This document shows, piece after piece, positions 3,434 to 35,762 of a stretch of 35,762 nt of DNA. Under the pieces are notes generated by a model, which had not been told where the DNA came from, searched no databases, and worked only from the letters and a program-made list of their open reading frames with translations. Made by a program: the position numbers and the translations under genes. The DNA comes from Planctomycetota bacterium (GTDB lineage: Bacteria > Planctomycetota > Phycisphaerae > Phycisphaerales > SM1A02), in contig JACNLW010000038.1 in the NCBI GenBank assembly GCA_014381305.1, forward strand, positions 1 through 35,762, in the 5' to 3' direction. Positions within the stretch are counted from its first letter, which is position 1; every line of letters begins with the position of its first letter.

Positions 3434-3506
3434 ATAGCGACTACAAAATCATACGCAAAGAGTGATTTTTGGTATCCTATGGGGCTCGAAAGAAGGTTTA
3501 CTACTC

Positions 3507-5362: not shown

Positions 5363-6802
5363 ATGAGAGATAAAAAACAAATTAAACCAGAACGAATTGC
5401 CCGTATCGACGATGTGCCACCCTTCAACGAAAAGAATGGCAGTGGTTCATACAAGGGTGATGGCAATGGATCTGGTGGCGGTTCAGGGGGCTCAGGTTCG
5501 GGGGGTTCGGATGGATCAGGTGGAGATGACGGCGGTTTTGGCGGACGCAAAGTCACGACATGTTCATTTTGTGGCAAAACGTCTAGAGAAGTTGGACCAA
5601 TGGTTGAAGGTCCAAATGAAATTTATGTTTGTTCTAACTGTACAGATCTTTGCCAGAATATTTTCAAACAAGAGCGTCGGCGTATTACTGCATCACAACC
5701 GACGTTTACTTCTATCCCCTCCCCTCGACAACTCAACGAATATCTCGAGCAGTATGTCATCGGGCAGGAGCGAGCAAAACGATCTTTATCTGTTGCTGTG
5801 CATAATCACTACAAGCGTTTGACTGAAATTGACAACGCAGACCGCGATGTAGAATTGGACAAGTCAAACGTTCTGCTCCTTGGACCAACAGGGACCGGCA
5901 AAACGTTACTCGCAAAAACTTTATCACGCGTGCTCAATGTGCCGTTTGCTATCGGCGATGCGACAACTTTAACTGAAGCTGGATATGTTGGCGAAGATGT
6001 TGAAAACCTTTTGTTAAAACTTCTCCAAGCTGCAGATTTTGATCTTGACGCAGCGCAGCGTGGAATTATTTACATTGATGAAATTGATAAGATTGGTCGA
6101 ACATCACAAAATGTTTCGATTACGCGTGATGTTTCTGGTGAAGGTGTTCAGCAATCACTTCTTAAGATGCTCGAAGGTGTGACTGCGAATGTGCCACCAC
6201 AAGGCGGTCGAAAACACCCAGAGCAACAATATATTCAAATGGATACTTCGAATATATTGTTTGTCTGTGGCGGTTCATTTGATGGCATCGAAGATATCAT
6301 TGCGAAACGAATTGGTACGAGCAAAATTGGTTTTGGTAGTGCTGCGCAAGACATCAAGCCAGATCATGAGCGATCATCTGAATTGCTTGATCAAGTAACA
6401 ACTGAGGACATTCTTCATTTTGGTTTGATACCAGAATTGCTCGGGAGATTACCAATTACTACTCCCTTGATGCCACTTACCGAAGATGCAATGGTTCAAA
6501 TTTTAACTGAGCCCAGAAACGCAATTGTGAAGCAATACCAGCACCTCTTCTCTTTAGAAGCTGCAAGGCTTGAATTCACAGACGATGCGTTACATCTGAT
6601 AGCGAAACGAGCGATGGAACGTGGTACTGGTGCTCGCGCACTTCGATCAGTCATCGATCAATTTATGATTGACGTGATGTACGATCTTCCAGATCGCGAT
6701 AATCAAGATTCCGTGTACCTTATCGATGCGGCTGGTATTGAGCGTGGACTCTCTCTTGATGACATGCTTCGCAAACCACGTGCCGCTAAAGAATCTGCAT
6801 AG
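5363..6802 (+). CDS. clpX: ClpX, ATP-dependent unfoldase with Gly/Ser-rich N-terminal extension
   Basis: ClpX (479 aa) is the hexameric AAA+ unfoldase that feeds substrates to the ClpP protease. Visible parts: a zinc-binding domain with Cys67, 70, 90 and 93; Walker A GPTGTGKT at 174-181; Walker B IIYIDEID around 235-242; pore loop GYVG at 207-210; the RKH loop GGRKHP at 281-286; the ClpP-docking IGF at 322-324; and sensor-2 GAR at 423-425. All key residues are present, so it should be active and ClpP-competent. It is odd in carrying about 55 extra residues before the zinc domain: a charged segment (1-25) and then a Gly/Ser/Asp-rich linker (26-61). No alternative start lies between ATG 5363 and the zinc domain, so the extension is part of the gene. 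clpP is not in the window. Confidence 0.95.
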
Positions 6803-6803
6803 A

Positions 6804-6859
6804 CCGCGGGTGAATTAAACATTACGAGCATTAGCTCGTAGTGTTTATTTCACCCGGGG
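6804..6859 (+). repeat. Long hairpin just downstream of clpX
   Basis: Two 26-base arms (6804-6829 and 6834-6859) are complementary apart from two mismatches and one G-U pair, with loop ATTA. The hairpin begins one base after the clpX stop. Its outer ends read CCGCGGGTGAA and TTCACCCGGGG, related to TTTCACCCGCGG at the edge of cluster B (about 31246-31257). There is no T-run after it, so it is not a classic terminator. It could end or stabilise the clpX mRNA, or be an edge module of the repeat family. Confidence 0.7.
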
Positions 6860-7190
6860 TCAATCTACATCCATTCATATCTGTTGTCTTCGATTATTTC
6901 ACCCGGGGTCACCTGCTTCATACTTCTTGTGCCAGATTTCCAATAAACTCACCCCCGGAAATAAACTCACCCCCGGTGAGTTTATTGGAAATGTACGCTG
7001 AAATTGAAAAACTCACCGGGGGTGAGTTTTTCTCCGGGGGTGAGTTTTTCTTGAAGATGACAGGAACTGACTCTGGGTGAAACAATCGATGATATCGCAA
7101 AGCCTAGTGATCAGAAGAATAAACTCACCGGGGGTGAGTTTAAGGAAAATGAGCGATGAAATCAATAAACTCACCGGGGGTGAGTTTATT
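6845..7190. repeat. Palindromic repeat cluster A (between clpX and rpmB)
   Basis: This non-coding stretch is built from one motif: A/T-rich end, CTCACC, three-base centre, GGTGAG, A/T-rich end. Full palindromes are at 6960-6986 (centre CCC), 7007-7031, 7120-7142 and 7164-7190 (centres GGG). Half-sites are at 6942-6958 and 7034-7049. The pairs 6960/7007 and 7120/7164 have centres 46 bases apart with similar spacers (GGAAATG...GAAAT). An 18-base direct repeat, TTATTTCACCCGGGGTCA, occurs at 6845-6862 and 6894-6911. Short open frames crossing the cluster are a by-product of the palindromes. The remainder of 6803-7336 holds the clpX hairpin and the rpmB promoter and leader. Confidence 0.9.
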
Positions 7191-31073: not shown

Positions 31074-31138
31074 ACCGTGGGTCAGTTCCCTCCAACTCAA
31101 CCACTCCCTCGATTTAGGATTGCCGCTGCAAGTTAGTG

Positions 31139-31257
31139 AATAAACTCACCCCCGGTGAGTTTAAGGGAAATGAGCACCGAATATCAATAAACCCACCGGG
31201 GGTGAGTTTATTCCGGGGGTGAGTTTATCTCCGGGGGTGAGTTTATTTCACCCGCGG
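31139..31257. repeat. Palindromic repeat cluster B (between convergent uvrA and glycosyltransferase)
   Basis: Same motif as cluster A. Palindromes are at 31139-31162 (CCC centre) and 31186-31212 (GGG centre, one arm mismatch CCCACC), with centres 47 bases apart. The spacer GGGAAATGAGC...GAATATC is closely related to that at 7143-7163. Half-sites follow at 31213-31228 and 31231-31248, and the cluster closes with TTTCACCCGCGG (31246-31257). It fills most of the 185-base gap between the two convergent stop codons, where a two-way terminator would be expected. The left part (31074-31138) shows only ACCGTGGGTCAG after the uvrA stop, loosely like the sequence after clpX. Confidence 0.9.
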
Positions 31258-31258
31258 C

Positions 31259-32305
31259 TTAAAAAACAAACGCTTTGTTAAATACATAATTAAACACGAT
31301 CCCTATGACGGAAGCAGACAACCCGCCGACCAGTCCAGCAAGTGGAATAGAGTGTGCATTTTCAACGAACCACGATGTAATAAAGTAATTGGCAACCGCC
31401 CCAGCAGAACAGACCAGCACAAATCCGAAGTATTGTGAAACAATGGAATTCTTGCGTGAATCCCAAAATGCATATTTACGATCCCAGAAAAAATTCCACG
31501 TCATCGCAATCCAAATAGCAATAACCAATGGCGTTACCATCAGTGCGAGAATATAAACTCCTAGTCCACTGACACCAACTGCTGCAAATGTAAAGAAACT
31601 AACAAATTTTGGGTGTGTATACCGAAGCAAACGAATGACATGTTGCAAATATTCCCATTGGACTTTCAGCGTAAGTTTGCTTTCACCAAGTTGGCGAGTG
31701 CGAAAATGGATTGGAACTTCAACAACGTTCTTGCATCTACATTTAACAATCAACTCTAAACCAATTTTATATCCAACCGGATCAAGATCTTTAGCAGTAA
31801 GAAAAGTTTCGCGGCGCATTCCAAGAAAACCACTCATCGAATCTTTTACTGTCGTAAACGGTCGAGCCATGATCGTTGCAATTTTGGAATTGAGCCAACG
31901 AAGAACGCCCCAGCCATCTTCGGTCGAACCGCCAGGAACATACCGTGAACCAACGGTAAAATCGGCATCATGTACGAGTGCCTCGATCATGCTTGGAATT
32001 GCAGATGCGGGATGTGAACCATCTGCATCCATGACGATACAAAATTCACTCTGAGCTTCTTCGAGTCCACGGATCACTGCTGTTGAAAGACCTTTCTCGT
32101 CACGCCGAACGATCAGGCGAACCCAAGGAATATTTTTTTCGGCAATAAGTGCTTCGGTTCCGTCATCTGAATTGTCATCAACAATAATAAGTGAGAGGTT
32201 TGGAAGTGATTCTTTCTTGACTTCAGCAAGTGCATCAATCAAAGAAGGAAGGCTGTCGACTTCTTCATAGGTCGGCAAGATGATCGTTACTGTTTCTTGT
32301 TGCAT
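31259..32305 (-). CDS. GT2 polyprenyl-phosphate glycosyltransferase (DPM1-like) fused to GtrA domain
   Basis: This 348-aa protein has an N-terminal family 2 glycosyltransferase (about 5-220) like dolichol/undecaprenyl-phosphate mannosyl- or glucosyl-transferases: ILPTYEEVDSLP, IVDDNSDDGTE, and the nucleotide-sugar/metal motif MDADGSHP (Asp93, Asp95). A C-terminal GtrA-like domain with four membrane segments (about 227-348) follows, thought to flip or hold lipid-linked sugars. It would transfer a sugar from a nucleotide donor to a lipid carrier at the inner face of the membrane. ATG 32305 is chosen; an in-frame TTG at 32317 overlaps the ispD stop (TTGA) and would add four residues. Neither has a clear ribosome site. 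It pairs with ispD, an isoprenoid gene, which fits lipid-carrier chemistry. Confidence 0.9.
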   Translation of the reverse strand: MQQETVTIILPTYEEVDSLPSLIDALAEVKKESLPNLSLIIVDDNSDDGTEALIAEKNIPWVRLIVRRDEKGLSTAVIRGLEEAQSEFCIVMDADGSHPASAIPSMIEALVHDADFTVGSRYVPGGSTEDGWGVLRWLNSKIATIMARPFTTVKDSMSGFLGMRRETFLTAKDLDPVGYKIGLELIVKCRCKNVVEVPIHFRTRQLGESKLTLKVQWEYLQHVIRLLRYTHPKFVSFFTFAAVGVSGLGVYILALMVTPLVIAIWIAMTWNFFWDRKYAFWDSRKNSIVSQYFGFVLVCSAGAVANYFITSWFVENAHSIPLAGLVGGLSASVIGIVFNYVFNKAFVF

Positions 32306-32313
32306 CTGCGAAG

Positions 32314-33096
32314 TCAAAATCTTTTGTGTGGCGCTCGTTCTCGAGCTGCCTTTACCCCAAGAATTGCTTTAACAAGGGAAAGGTCGCTCTGTGTTGTGAC
32401 CTTTATATTTCGGCTTTCCCCTTGGACAAGATGAACAACTTCTCCAAGTTCTTCAACAAGCTTGGCATCATCGGTGGCTTTTTGTCCATCAATTTGCGCA
32501 TATGCACGTTTCAGGAGAGACGGCTTGAATATTTGTGGTGTTTGTAGTTCCCATAATCCTGTGCGATCAAGCGTTTGTTCAACTTCATAGACCTCAACCG
32601 TTGATTTTCCTGTATCCCCAAAAATGGCATCGGCAATATCATCCTCATGACCGATCGTTCGCTTGGTCTGCTTCGTGCGCTTTACTGTGCCAGTGATCTG
32701 TGTTGCGGCCGCAACCGCGTCTAGTTCATTCGATGCAAGCAGAAGATGATCAAAAAGTGCATTGGTCAATGCTGGTCTTGCTGCGTCATGGACTGCGATT
32801 CTGTCAATCCCATCTTCAACAAGCGAAAGTCCTTTTTGTACCGAATCCATTCGAGTTTCACCGCCCGAAACGATGAGAACACCGTGAAAGGAAAGTGCGG
32901 GACCGAACCGATCTCGAAAGTTGTCAAAATCTTTCGATGGACCGACAACGATAATTTGGGCAATTTCTTCTCTTTTAGTGAAAAACTCCACTGTTCGCAT
33001 CAATAGCGGCCTTCCACCAAGATCCTCGGCCAATTTATCCCTCTCGCCAAATCTTGTGGAGCTCCCCGCTGCTGGAATAATGACCGCTATTTTCAT
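32314..33096 (-). CDS. ispD: 2-C-methyl-D-erythritol 4-phosphate cytidylyltransferase
   Basis: IspD (260 aa) couples MEP to CTP to give CDP-ME in the non-mevalonate isoprenoid pathway. Seen in order: the nucleotide-binding PAAGSSTRFG (8-17), Lys21 in the DKLAE motif, GGETRMDSVQKGL, VHDAARPAL, LQTPQIFK, ATDDAKLVE and GESRNIKVTTQSDL near the end. All characteristic segments are present and the length is slightly above the usual 230 aa, with part of the excess in a charged stretch near TGTVKRTKQTKRTIG. Its stop lies next to the glycosyltransferase start. Upstream is repeat cluster C and then tRNA-Leu. ATG 33096 has no obvious ribosome site. ispF, often adjacent, is not here. Confidence 0.94.
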   Translation of the reverse strand: MKIAVIIPAAGSSTRFGERDKLAEDLGGRPLLMRTVEFFTKREEIAQIIVVGPSKDFDNFRDRFGPALSFHGVLIVSGGETRMDSVQKGLSLVEDGIDRIAVHDAARPALTNALFDHLLLASNELDAVAAATQITGTVKRTKQTKRTIGHEDDIADAIFGDTGKSTVEVYEVEQTLDRTGLWELQTPQIFKPSLLKRAYAQIDGQKATDDAKLVEELGEVVHLVQGESRNIKVTTQSDLSLVKAILGVKAARERAPHKRF

Positions 33097-33122
33097 GTTC
33101 GCATCATAACAAGACGGCTGAA

Positions 33123-33197
33123 ATTAACTCACCCCCGAAATTAACTCATCCCCAAAATAAACTCACCCCCGGTGAGTTTATTTAGGGGGTGAGTTTC
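33123..33197. repeat. Palindromic repeat cluster C (between tRNA-Leu and ispD)
   Basis: The smallest copy of the family. It contains a half-site (33123-33137), a degenerate half-site with CTCATCCCC (about 33138-33152), one perfect palindrome with arms AATAAACTCACC/GGTGAGTTTATT (33156-33182, CCC centre) and a right half-site GGGGGTGAGTTT (33186-33197). It lies 12 bases beyond the 3' end of the tRNA on the transcript side, so it could terminate the tRNA transcript before ispD. C-type units are on the left and G-type on the right, as in clusters A and B. Confidence 0.88.
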
Positions 33198-33451: not shown

Positions 33452-35762
33452 ATGTCTACCCTTCGAACGATCTGTACAGTTATCGCTACTTTTGGCATGG
33501 TTGCTGGAATTGCATACGCAGCGCCCCAAGCGAAAAAAATAACCAAAAGAACAACAATGCGAATCGGATCACCAAACCATGGTGCAGCTACTCGCGGCGC
33601 TGGCATTACGATGTGTGATCCCGCTGACATACTTGTATCTGAAAGTTTGGATATGGCAACGATCACACCCGGCAATTCAGTCAATTGTTTTGGTGGGAGT
33701 GGCACTCCTGAACATCGGTACGGCAGAAGCCATGATCTTTCACTTGGAAATACAGCCGGACTTCCTTGGGAAATTACTTGTATTCACTTTGGACTTGCAC
33801 AAAACTCCGTAGCGGGTACAGCAACTGTAAATGTTTATATAGATCAAGACGGTGTTGCAGGCCCAACTGCTGATGGCAGCGATCTCTGGCTGATCGGCAC
33901 AGTTGAAAAACCAATTCCTGTAACGAACACGCCAGTCATGATTACAGCCTCTCCGGTTACACCTTACCCTCTCAACCCTGATGCTTTGATCTTCATTGAA
34001 ATTGTCATCCCCGAAAGTTTCCCTGGAACACACGAAATTGGCAGCAACGCTGCAGGTGAAGCATCTATCAGTTGGATTCGAACAACAAATGGTGAATGTG
34101 GCATTGGTTCGTGGACAAATCCTTCAGCACTTGGTTTCCCTGATATGCATATTCTTGAAGCAATTGAAATCGCTCCTGCGACGATTGCGGATCCATGTGA
34201 TGACCCCCTTCCAACTTGTGCATCTGACATTGATGGCAGCGGGAGCGTTACAGTAGATGATCTCCTTGCAGTCATCGGTGCGTGGGGCCAATGTGGAGAT
34301 GGCACATTCCGCCCCGCTGGCGATGTCGCCCCACTTCCAAATGGTGACTGCTGCGTTGACGTGAACGACGTGTTGCAAATTATTAGTGATTTTGCCTTCG
34401 AATGTGGCGGCGGCGGTGTTGAGGGCTTGGGCATCAACGAAGTTCGTATTGACCACAGTGGCGTTGACGACAACGAATATGCTGAACTCATTGGGCCAGC
34501 AGGAACAGTCCTCGATGGCTACTCTTATATTGTTATAGGTGATGGAACGGGCGGTTCTGGTGTTCTTGAAACGATCATTGACCTCACCGGTTTGATGATT
34601 GCAGAAGATGGCTTCCTATCCCTTGGTAAAGCCGAAATGACAATTGCAACTCCGGACGTCATTATTGATGGACTGAACTTTGAAAACTCCGACAATGTGA
34701 CACACTTACTCGTGTTTGGACTCACAGCCGTACTTGATCAGGATCTGGATATTGAAGACGATGGTGTGCTCGATGGTTCGTTCTGGGCTGAAGAAGTCGA
34801 TAGTTTCTCCCTCCTTGAAATTGGCTATGACGGTGAAGTCCTTGACTTACTGTATTCAGACACAGTACTTGGTCCAGTTGGCGATTACGTTCCTGCACAT
34901 GTTTTCCGTTGTCCAGATGCTGGCGATTGGAACTTAGGTGTTTGGGGTGATCTTGCGTTAGATACGCCAGGTGAACCAAATATGTGTGATCTCGCTGACC
35001 TTGATGAAGACGGTGTATTTGATCTTGTCGACAACTGTTACCTCTACAACCCAGATCAAACCGATTGCAACTCCAACGGAGTTGGCGATGTTTGCGATAT
35101 TGCTGAGGGAGTTTCACAAGATTGCAACGGGAACGGTATCCCTGATGAATGCGAAGCGGATTGTGATGGCAATGGAATCCCTGACGAGTGCGACATCGCT
35201 GATGGCGCTGCTGACTGTGATGGGAATGGTATCCCAGATGTTTGTGAAGCAGACTGCAACGAAAATGGGATTGGCGATGCTTGTGATATTGCTGACGGCA
35301 CTTCGTTAGACGACAACGGCAACGGTGTCCCTGATGAATGTGAAGTTGGTAATCTTCTTTATACGAGTTTCGAAGAACCGCTTACTGGTGGACAATATGT
35401 CGACCTTGGTGATGCCGCAGTTGATCATCAACTTTTCAATAACGCTGGGGAAGCAATGGTTGAATGGGCTGCTACTGGTGCCGAAATGGGATTCACTGCT
35501 TGGTATCTGAACACTCGTGGTAGTGTTGGATTAACCGACGGTGATTACGTCGGCGTAACCGACTACACAGGCGGGGGTGTTGGGGCATATCCAGATGGGG
35601 GCCAAGGCTACCAAAGGAGCGGCTGTGATGGACTGATGCGGGGCGGTTTTGACACCGCAACTGGCAGCGGGGCTTGGGATGTTAGTTTAGACCGGTTCAT
35701 CGCGAGTACAGGGTGGGAAGCCCGTGACGCGGGCGGCCTTGATAATATTTGGTATGGCGGGG
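33452..35762 (+). CDS. Large secreted multidomain protein, 3' end cut by window
   Basis: The frame is open from ATG 33452 to the window end (770 codons, no stop), with AAGGAG (33439-33444) 7 bases upstream. It has a signal peptide (1-23, cleavage after AYA) and an N-terminal beta-rich region (about 55-245). A dockerin-like pair in mid-protein (258 to about 320) reads DIDGSGSVTVDDLLAVIGAWG, then GDCCVDVNDVLQIISDF. A stretch beginning INEVRIDHSG...EYAELIGP (about 328 on) resembles lamin-tail-like domains. Residues 538-631 are calcium-type repeats of the form DCNGNGIPDECE, six times, in units of about 13 and 19 residues. A Gly-rich region follows to the edge. Likely cell-surface or exported. Enzymatic function, if any, is not visible and may lie beyond the window. 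Confidence 0.85.
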   Translation, partial: MSTLRTICTVIATFGMVAGIAYAAPQAKKITKRTTMRIGSPNHGAATRGAGITMCDPADILVSESLDMATITPGNSVNCFGGSGTPEHRYGRSHDLSLGNTAGLPWEITCIHFGLAQNSVAGTATVNVYIDQDGVAGPTADGSDLWLIGTVEKPIPVTNTPVMITASPVTPYPLNPDALIFIEIVIPESFPGTHEIGSNAAGEASISWIRTTNGECGIGSWTNPSALGFPDMHILEAIEIAPATIADPCDDPLPTCASDIDGSGSVTVDDLLAVIGAWGQCGDGTFRPAGDVAPLPNGDCCVDVNDVLQIISDFAFECGGGGVEGLGINEVRIDHSGVDDNEYAELIGPAGTVLDGYSYIVIGDGTGGSGVLETIIDLTGLMIAEDGFLSLGKAEMTIATPDVIIDGLNFENSDNVTHLLVFGLTAVLDQDLDIEDDGVLDGSFWAEEVDSFSLLEIGYDGEVLDLLYSDTVLGPVGDYVPAHVFRCPDAGDWNLGVWGDLALDTPGEPNMCDLADLDEDGVFDLVDNCYLYNPDQTDCNSNGVGDVCDIAEGVSQDCNGNGIPDECEADCDGNGIPDECDIADGAADCDGNGIPDVCEADCNENGIGDACDIADGTSLDDNGNGVPDECEVGNLLYTSFEEPLTGGQYVDLGDAAVDHQLFNNAGEAMVEWAATGAEMGFTAWYLNTRGSVGLTDGDYVGVTDYTGGGVGAYPDGGQGYQRSGCDGLMRGGFDTATGSGAWDVSLDRFIASTGWEARDAGGLDNIWYGG

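Follow-up and report, generated by a model that had tools for sequence, protein, structure and literature searches.

Palindrome dimers in a Planctomycetota genome as probable REPIN-like elements associated with a RAYT transposase

Results

Palindromes with CTCACC/GGTGAG arms in the genome of a Planctomycetota bacterium are very probably a REP family, whose dimers, with centres 46 or 47 bp apart, would be REPIN-like, non-autonomous mobile units copied by a RAYT (HUH/Y1 single-strand transposase). We recognized them in a stretch of 35,762 nucleotides (hereafter the window), which forms contig 6 of an assembly of 1.88 Mb in 114 contigs. A reading of the window from its sequence only had proposed that a palindrome dimer is the copied unit and had suggested looking for a RAYT-type or other transposase gene flanked by a copy, and it was largely right.

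Palindromes, dimers and half-units in the window

The window contained six exact matches to the motif CTCACC-N3-GGTGAG (at 6966, 7012, 7124, 7170, 31145 and 33162), with 0.01 expected from shuffles. A seventh palindrome, at 31192–31206 (CCCACC, GGG, GGTGAG), had a single arm mismatch. The coordinates given by the sequence-only reading were correct, as were the grouping into clusters A, B and C and the distances of 46, 46 and 47 bp between partners, here measured from start to start. Each of the three clusters was flanked by half-sites.

Cluster A began with a lone half-unit at 6942–6958, assigned to the − strand by sequence and polarity analysis (G-loop and arm on the − strand, AATAAACTCACCCCCGG on the + strand). 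Dimer A1 consisted of a C-loop palindrome on the left (6960–6986), a spacer of the GGAAATGTACGCTGAAATTG type (6987–7005, + strand) and, 46 bp apart, a G-loop palindrome on the right (7006–7032); it was followed by the lone half-unit CCGGGGGTGAGTTTTTC (7035–7051, + strand). Both partners of dimer A2 were of the G-loop type (7118–7142 and 7164–7190, 46 bp apart), around a spacer of the GGAAAATGAGCGATGAAATC type (7143–7163, + strand). In cluster B, a C-loop palindrome (31139–31163) and the G-loop palindrome with the mismatched arm (31186–31212) formed a dimer at 47 bp, and two tandem half-units, CCGGGGGTGAGTTTAT, followed with a period of 18 (31213–31247, + strand). Cluster C had two tandem half-units (AATTAACTCACCCCCGA and AATTAACTCATCCCCAA; 33122–33155, − strand), one C-loop palindrome (33156–33182) and the half-unit GGGGGTGAGTTT (33184–33195, + strand). 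The spacers of the three dimers (GGAAATGTACGCTGAAATTG, GGAAAATGAGCGATGAAATC and GGGAAATGAGCACCGAATATC) were related to each other.

An Rfam scan of the window gave one tRNA and nothing else. Near the window end, at 35058–35345, direct repeats that encode motifs resembling DCNGNGIPDECE lay within a long + strand ORF.

Copy number and distribution

The palindrome was not limited to the three sites of the window: the pattern CTCACCSSSGGTGAG (CTCACC-SSS-GGTGAG) had 134 matches in the window's own genome, and the reversed control had none. Among 12 congeners, 11 had no match and one, the metagenome-assembled genome NIOZ-UU88, had 10. The rest of the family and order gave scattered single matches or pairs, with mostly GC-mixed loops, at chance level. 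The longer pattern TAAACTCACCSSSGGTGAGTTTA, searched in one genome each for 84,980 species, was found in the Planctomycetota MAG NIOZ-UU88 only.

The dimer as a repeated unit

Spacing and placement were analyzed in 59 stretches (541 kb, mostly around copies), containing 121 of the 134 palindromes. The centres of 30 of the 34 pairs closer than 60 bp were either 46 (13 pairs) or 47 bp (17 pairs) apart, the other distances being 27–30 (four), 39 and 50 bp. By other counting rules the share at 46 or 47 bp was 30/36 (all pairs <60 bp) or 30/32 (pairs at 39–50 bp). In NIOZ-UU88 all five close pairs were at 46 or 47 bp. This makes the dimer a genome-wide unit and, together with the dispersal of its copies, supports the earlier proposal that the dimer is what is copied. 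Conservation of the spacer, also proposed, held genome-wide for spacing and length and only in part for sequence: by eye, the spacer of ~17 of 31 dimers resembled GGAAATGAACGCTGAAAATC or the reverse complement of it, and the others had a different sequence of the same length.

With C and G denoting the loop as read on the + strand, the pairs at 46 or 47 bp were C-G (17), C-C (6) and G-G (7), and never G-C. Just over half of the dimers were thus in inverted orientation, which is defined here by the loop only. Folded as single-stranded DNA, the dimers had z-scores of −7.8 to −9.7 against shuffles, about 8–10 SD below. The C-G dimers gave a single long hairpin, the G-G dimer a pair of short hairpins. 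Covariation at the fourth base outside the core amounted to 75 paired changes (mean 60 and maximum 73 in 2000 shuffles), and this was the only arm position exceeding all 2000 shuffles. Summed over six arm positions, the count of 545 (shuffle mean 525, maximum 546) was at the edge of the shuffles, and therefore our structural argument is not based on covariation.

Polar half-units and a GGGGWSAS octamer

Lone half-units were strictly polar. There were 34 copies of GGGGTGAGTT and 15 of the complementary AACTCACCCC; neither of the two opposite half types occurred. All 47 half-units near a palindrome pointed outward, C-halves to the left and G-halves to the right, and their period was mostly 15–19 bp. 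The half retained was in 49 of 49 cases the one with GGGGTGAG, an octamer present 13 times in the window clusters. It agrees with GGGG[AT][CG]A[CG], the consensus of the terminal inverted repeats (TIRs) flanking TIRYT transposases (PMC3733652, PMC6006769), and GGGGWSAS had 18 matches in the window, for 3.4 expected. We regard the octamer as a putative recognition site.

Genomic placement and empty sites in relatives

Intergenic placement was found for 119 of 121 copies, in sequence that was 90% coding by simple hexamer-based gene calls (p about 1e-116). Of 49 classified clusters, 19 lay between convergent genes, compared with 13 of 117 other intergenic gaps (Fisher p=1e-4). Gaps between divergent genes were under-represented (10/49 clusters vs 52/117 other gaps), yet present.

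At the loci of sites A, B and C, the two nearest congeners (G005 and G002) had 86–94% protein identity to the window's genome. In both of them the flanking genes were colinear and the repeats absent. Site A measured 474 bp in the window, and 106 and 124 bp in the two congeners. The corresponding lengths were 193 vs 134 and 41 bp for site B, and 90 vs 141 and 68 bp for site C, where the sequences were unrelated. The uvrA-glycosyltransferase junction of site B was without the repeat in further congeners too. From these empty sites only, we infer that the dimers have probably moved. The intergenic sequence of the empty sites was too diverged for a definition of the junctions, and with them of a target duplication. 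Of the element types named by the sequence-only reading, we therefore kept the REP/BIME-like one, in agreement with dispersed, intergenic copies, and dropped the MITE label in favor of "REPIN-like, RAYT-associated".

A RAYT gene between dimers in NIOZ-UU88

The congener NIOZ-UU88 encoded an intact RAYT-type HUH/Y1 transposase of 238 aa, P0001 (G009, locus L039, 2770–3483). CTCACC dimers lay on both sides of its gene, with palindromes starting at 2575, 2622 and 2668, and at 3488 and 3534, and its TAA stop codon was inside a palindrome arm (AATAAACTCACC). P0001 matched PF01797 (Y1_Tnp) above the cut-off (E=2e-10), and NF047646 (REP_Tyr_transpos) with E=7e-15 and a score of 55, below the curated cut-off of 80. 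The catalytic residues were present, with an invariant HUH motif (H59/H61) and Y120. A PDB search by sequence gave no match. An AlphaFold model, with a modest overall pLDDT of 67 and a good core, had its best fold match in 4er8, a structure of the E. coli RAYT in complex with a REP hairpin. At Pfam E <= 0.001, P0001 matched Y1_Tnp only, and none of the C-terminal helix-turn-helix families (Bac_DnaA_C, HTH_23, HTH_28); it may nevertheless carry a divergent helix-turn-helix domain.

The 8-kb stretch around this RAYT gave only repeat matches with the DNA of the window's genome (40 of 128 candidates scored in a first look), thus no sign that its contig was misplaced from the window's species. The estimated contamination of NIOZ-UU88 was about 6%. 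A second RAYT in this genome (L056, contig C232, 883–1557) was 44% identical to P0001, with one internal TGA and one internal TAA counted, and had AAAAAGTCTCAGAGGCGATTTT repeat units upstream.

A RAYT flanked by copies, which the sequence-only reading had suggested looking for, was therefore present in the congener and not in the window's own, fragmented assembly, where none of the three Y1_Tnp genes stood beside CTCACC units. Among the first 57 CTCACC clusters, 16 were at most 300 bp from a contig end, about eightfold the two expected. Because the repeats are over-represented at contig ends, the cognate RAYT is perhaps missing through assembly loss: a gene enclosed by near-identical dimers would be likely to lie on a short contig, perhaps lost in binning. 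Alternatively, the gene itself may have been lost, and the CTCACC repeats would then be an orphan family.

Other repeat families and transposase genes

The closest relative of P0001 in the window's genome, 52% identical, was a RAYT on contig C87 (L018/L021, about 50400–51350). Palindromes of the AATTGACTCSGAGTCAATT family, with half-sites, were found on both its sides. The genome contained 49 copies of this family, and a spacing of 35 or 36 bp was seen in nine of its ten close pairs. P0001 with the CTCACC dimers and the C87 RAYT with AATTGACTCSGAGTCAATT thus represent two related RAYTs whose palindromes differ in sequence and spacing. Conceivably, one enzyme, the C87 RAYT, could act on both families; on its flanks only the GACTCSGAGTC type was present.

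A third dispersed family, AGACCGCGGGTGAATTAATCG ... CGATTATTTCACCCGGGGTCA, had its ends 60–64 bp apart, with 45 strict copies of one end in the window's genome and none in the 12 congeners. It was often directly joined to CTCACC units (AGTTTATTAGACCGCGG), at many loci (e.g., L108, 3111–3430), and in one locus the two formed a tandem repeat at 129 bp. In the window, an interleaved copy, AGACCGCGGGTGAATTAA ... TTTCACCCGGGGTC, was found at 6801–6912, with a second right end at 6891–6912, and by eye we recognized a degenerate left half, ACTGACTCTGGGTGAAACAATCGATGATATCGCAAAG, between dimers A1 and A2 (7068–7115).

Repeats also accompanied other transposase genes. In the window's genome, on contig C110 (L016, about 35600–36400) a Y1 transposase gene adjoined an array of GACCTGACCCTGGGGTCTGACCC units, which agree with the GGGGWSAS repeats of TIRYT genes, and on contig C103 (L017, about 31100–32400) a third Y1 transposase gene adjoined a long, diverged CACAGAG/CTTCGAGG tandem array. 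A RAYT from a different genus (L049, genome G024, contig C4) had AAGGTGTCAGACACCTT / GAAGGTGTCTGACACCTTC palindromes on both sides, suggesting that each RAYT of the family has its own palindrome.

Discussion

Proposed copying of the dimer

RAYTs bind and cut single-stranded REP hairpins (PMC8266576), and the copying of doublets follows Bertels and Rainey's REPIN model (PMC3116915). For the CTCACC family, the dimer would fold whenever it is exposed as single-stranded DNA, such as on the lagging-strand template. RAYT subunits could then bind the dimer hairpins by way of their loop and the GGGGTGAG octamer; single strands next to the hairpins would be cut and rejoined, and a dimer copy placed at a new intergenic site. 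Despite symmetric arms, each palindrome could have a direction, given by the asymmetry between C-loop and G-loop (CCC and GGG on opposite strands). In Stenotrophomonas maltophilia, cutting dropped severely and binding was no longer visible when the loop sequence was reversed (PMC8266576), which makes the CCC/GGG loop a plausible direction mark for a symmetric palindrome. Copies would be retained chiefly where they are least harmful, in gaps that contain no genes, above all those between convergent genes. More speculatively, and with a rather low likelihood, this would be a tag-less RAYT system that reads direction from the loop and GGGGTGAG only, and polar copying or extension would produce the outward, octamer-keeping tandem half-units.

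Other explanations

Several observations count against a REPIN/RAYT origin, namely the missing cognate RAYT in the window's assembly, the missing tag, the C-C and G-G pairs, the NF047646 score below its cut-off and the modest overall confidence of the AlphaFold model; neither excision nor a junction or target duplication was observed. The palindromes could instead be similar bidirectional intrinsic terminators, selected for termination or for the protection of mRNA 3' ends. The enrichment of clusters between convergent genes would fit such a role, as would stems that are GC-rich at the loop and continue in T-rich arms. However, the 10 clusters between divergent genes lie where no terminator is needed, and neither the fixed 46/47-bp spacing, the shared spacer and the 134 near-identical copies, nor the absence in sister species would be expected from terminators, and in NIOZ-UU88 the palindromes flank a transposase gene. 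We thus consider this origin improbable, while some copies may have a secondary role in termination or mRNA stability.

The symmetry of the core, the constant distance between centres and the iteron-like half-sites at 15–19 bp would also be compatible with sites for a chromosomal DNA-binding protein (a repressor, nucleoid or replication protein), the spacing then reflecting a dimer of dimers. Against this stand the species-limited distribution with empty orthologous sites, a spacer that is shared and non-palindromic, the RAYT association in NIOZ-UU88 and the sister family with its RAYT in the window's genome. Such an origin seems highly improbable to us, although REP copies could recruit host proteins, as in E. 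coli. A REP family with a REPIN-like dimer remains our preferred explanation.

Comparison with known systems

The CTCACC family shares most of the features compared with REPIN/RAYT systems and appears to work like them. As in REPINs, whose doublets adopt a single long hairpin or a pair of short hairpins, the palindromes form extragenic doublets of fixed spacing with both kinds of fold, distinct doublet families are found beside distinct single-copy RAYTs of one genome, and singlets and clusters occur too (PMC3116915). Unlike in REPINs (PMC3116915), the centres are 46/47 bp apart, compared with 71 bp for the GI type of P. fluorescens; the arms are symmetric, with the direction in the loop only; direct-orientation pairs are frequent; polar lone half-units stand in tandem; and only a congener yielded the cognate RAYT.

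With the GTAG- and CGTC-tagged REPs, reported from Planctomycetes as well (PMC3733652), the family has in common dispersed intergenic palindromes, dimers and clusters, and a REPtron organization around the RAYT. On the CTCACC flanks both tags were at background level (of 114 flanks on each side, two left and two right ones had GTAG; CGTC was present in 2 of 114), and we place the family outside the GTAG and CGTC super-families.

TIRYT elements (TIRtrons; subclass 2.1 in PMC6006769) are similar in the TIR consensus, which the GGGGTGAG half-unit fits, and in self-complementary repeats that flank a ~238-aa HUH/Y1 transposase, can overlap the 3' end of its gene, and can form dimers and clusters (PMC3733652, PMC6006769). 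The CTCACC family differs from them in its high copy number and in the strong hairpins of its palindromes. Also, subclass 2.1 transposases carry a Pfam-type C-terminal helix-turn-helix (PMC6006769), for which P0001 had no such match, and a 2018 survey detected no REP-like sequences in the vicinity of subclass 2.1 genes (PMC6006769). The BIMEs of E. coli are likewise palindrome mosaics with interleaved second motifs, as here with AGACCGCGGGTGAATTAATCG...CGATTATTTCACCCGGGGTCA repeatedly joined to CTCACC units, but differ in sequence, spacing and tag.

Significance

REP/RAYT systems are mostly known from Proteobacteria, with GTAG tags. Here, several palindrome families coexist in a Planctomycetota lineage with small genomes, and two of the families each have an identifiable partner RAYT; the two enzymes are 52% identical. 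Short-read assemblies of this group seem to be broken up by the repeats, so that the transposase gene itself can be hidden. The pairing of RAYTs with their palindromes allows testing which part of a RAYT sets the sequence and the spacing of its palindrome.
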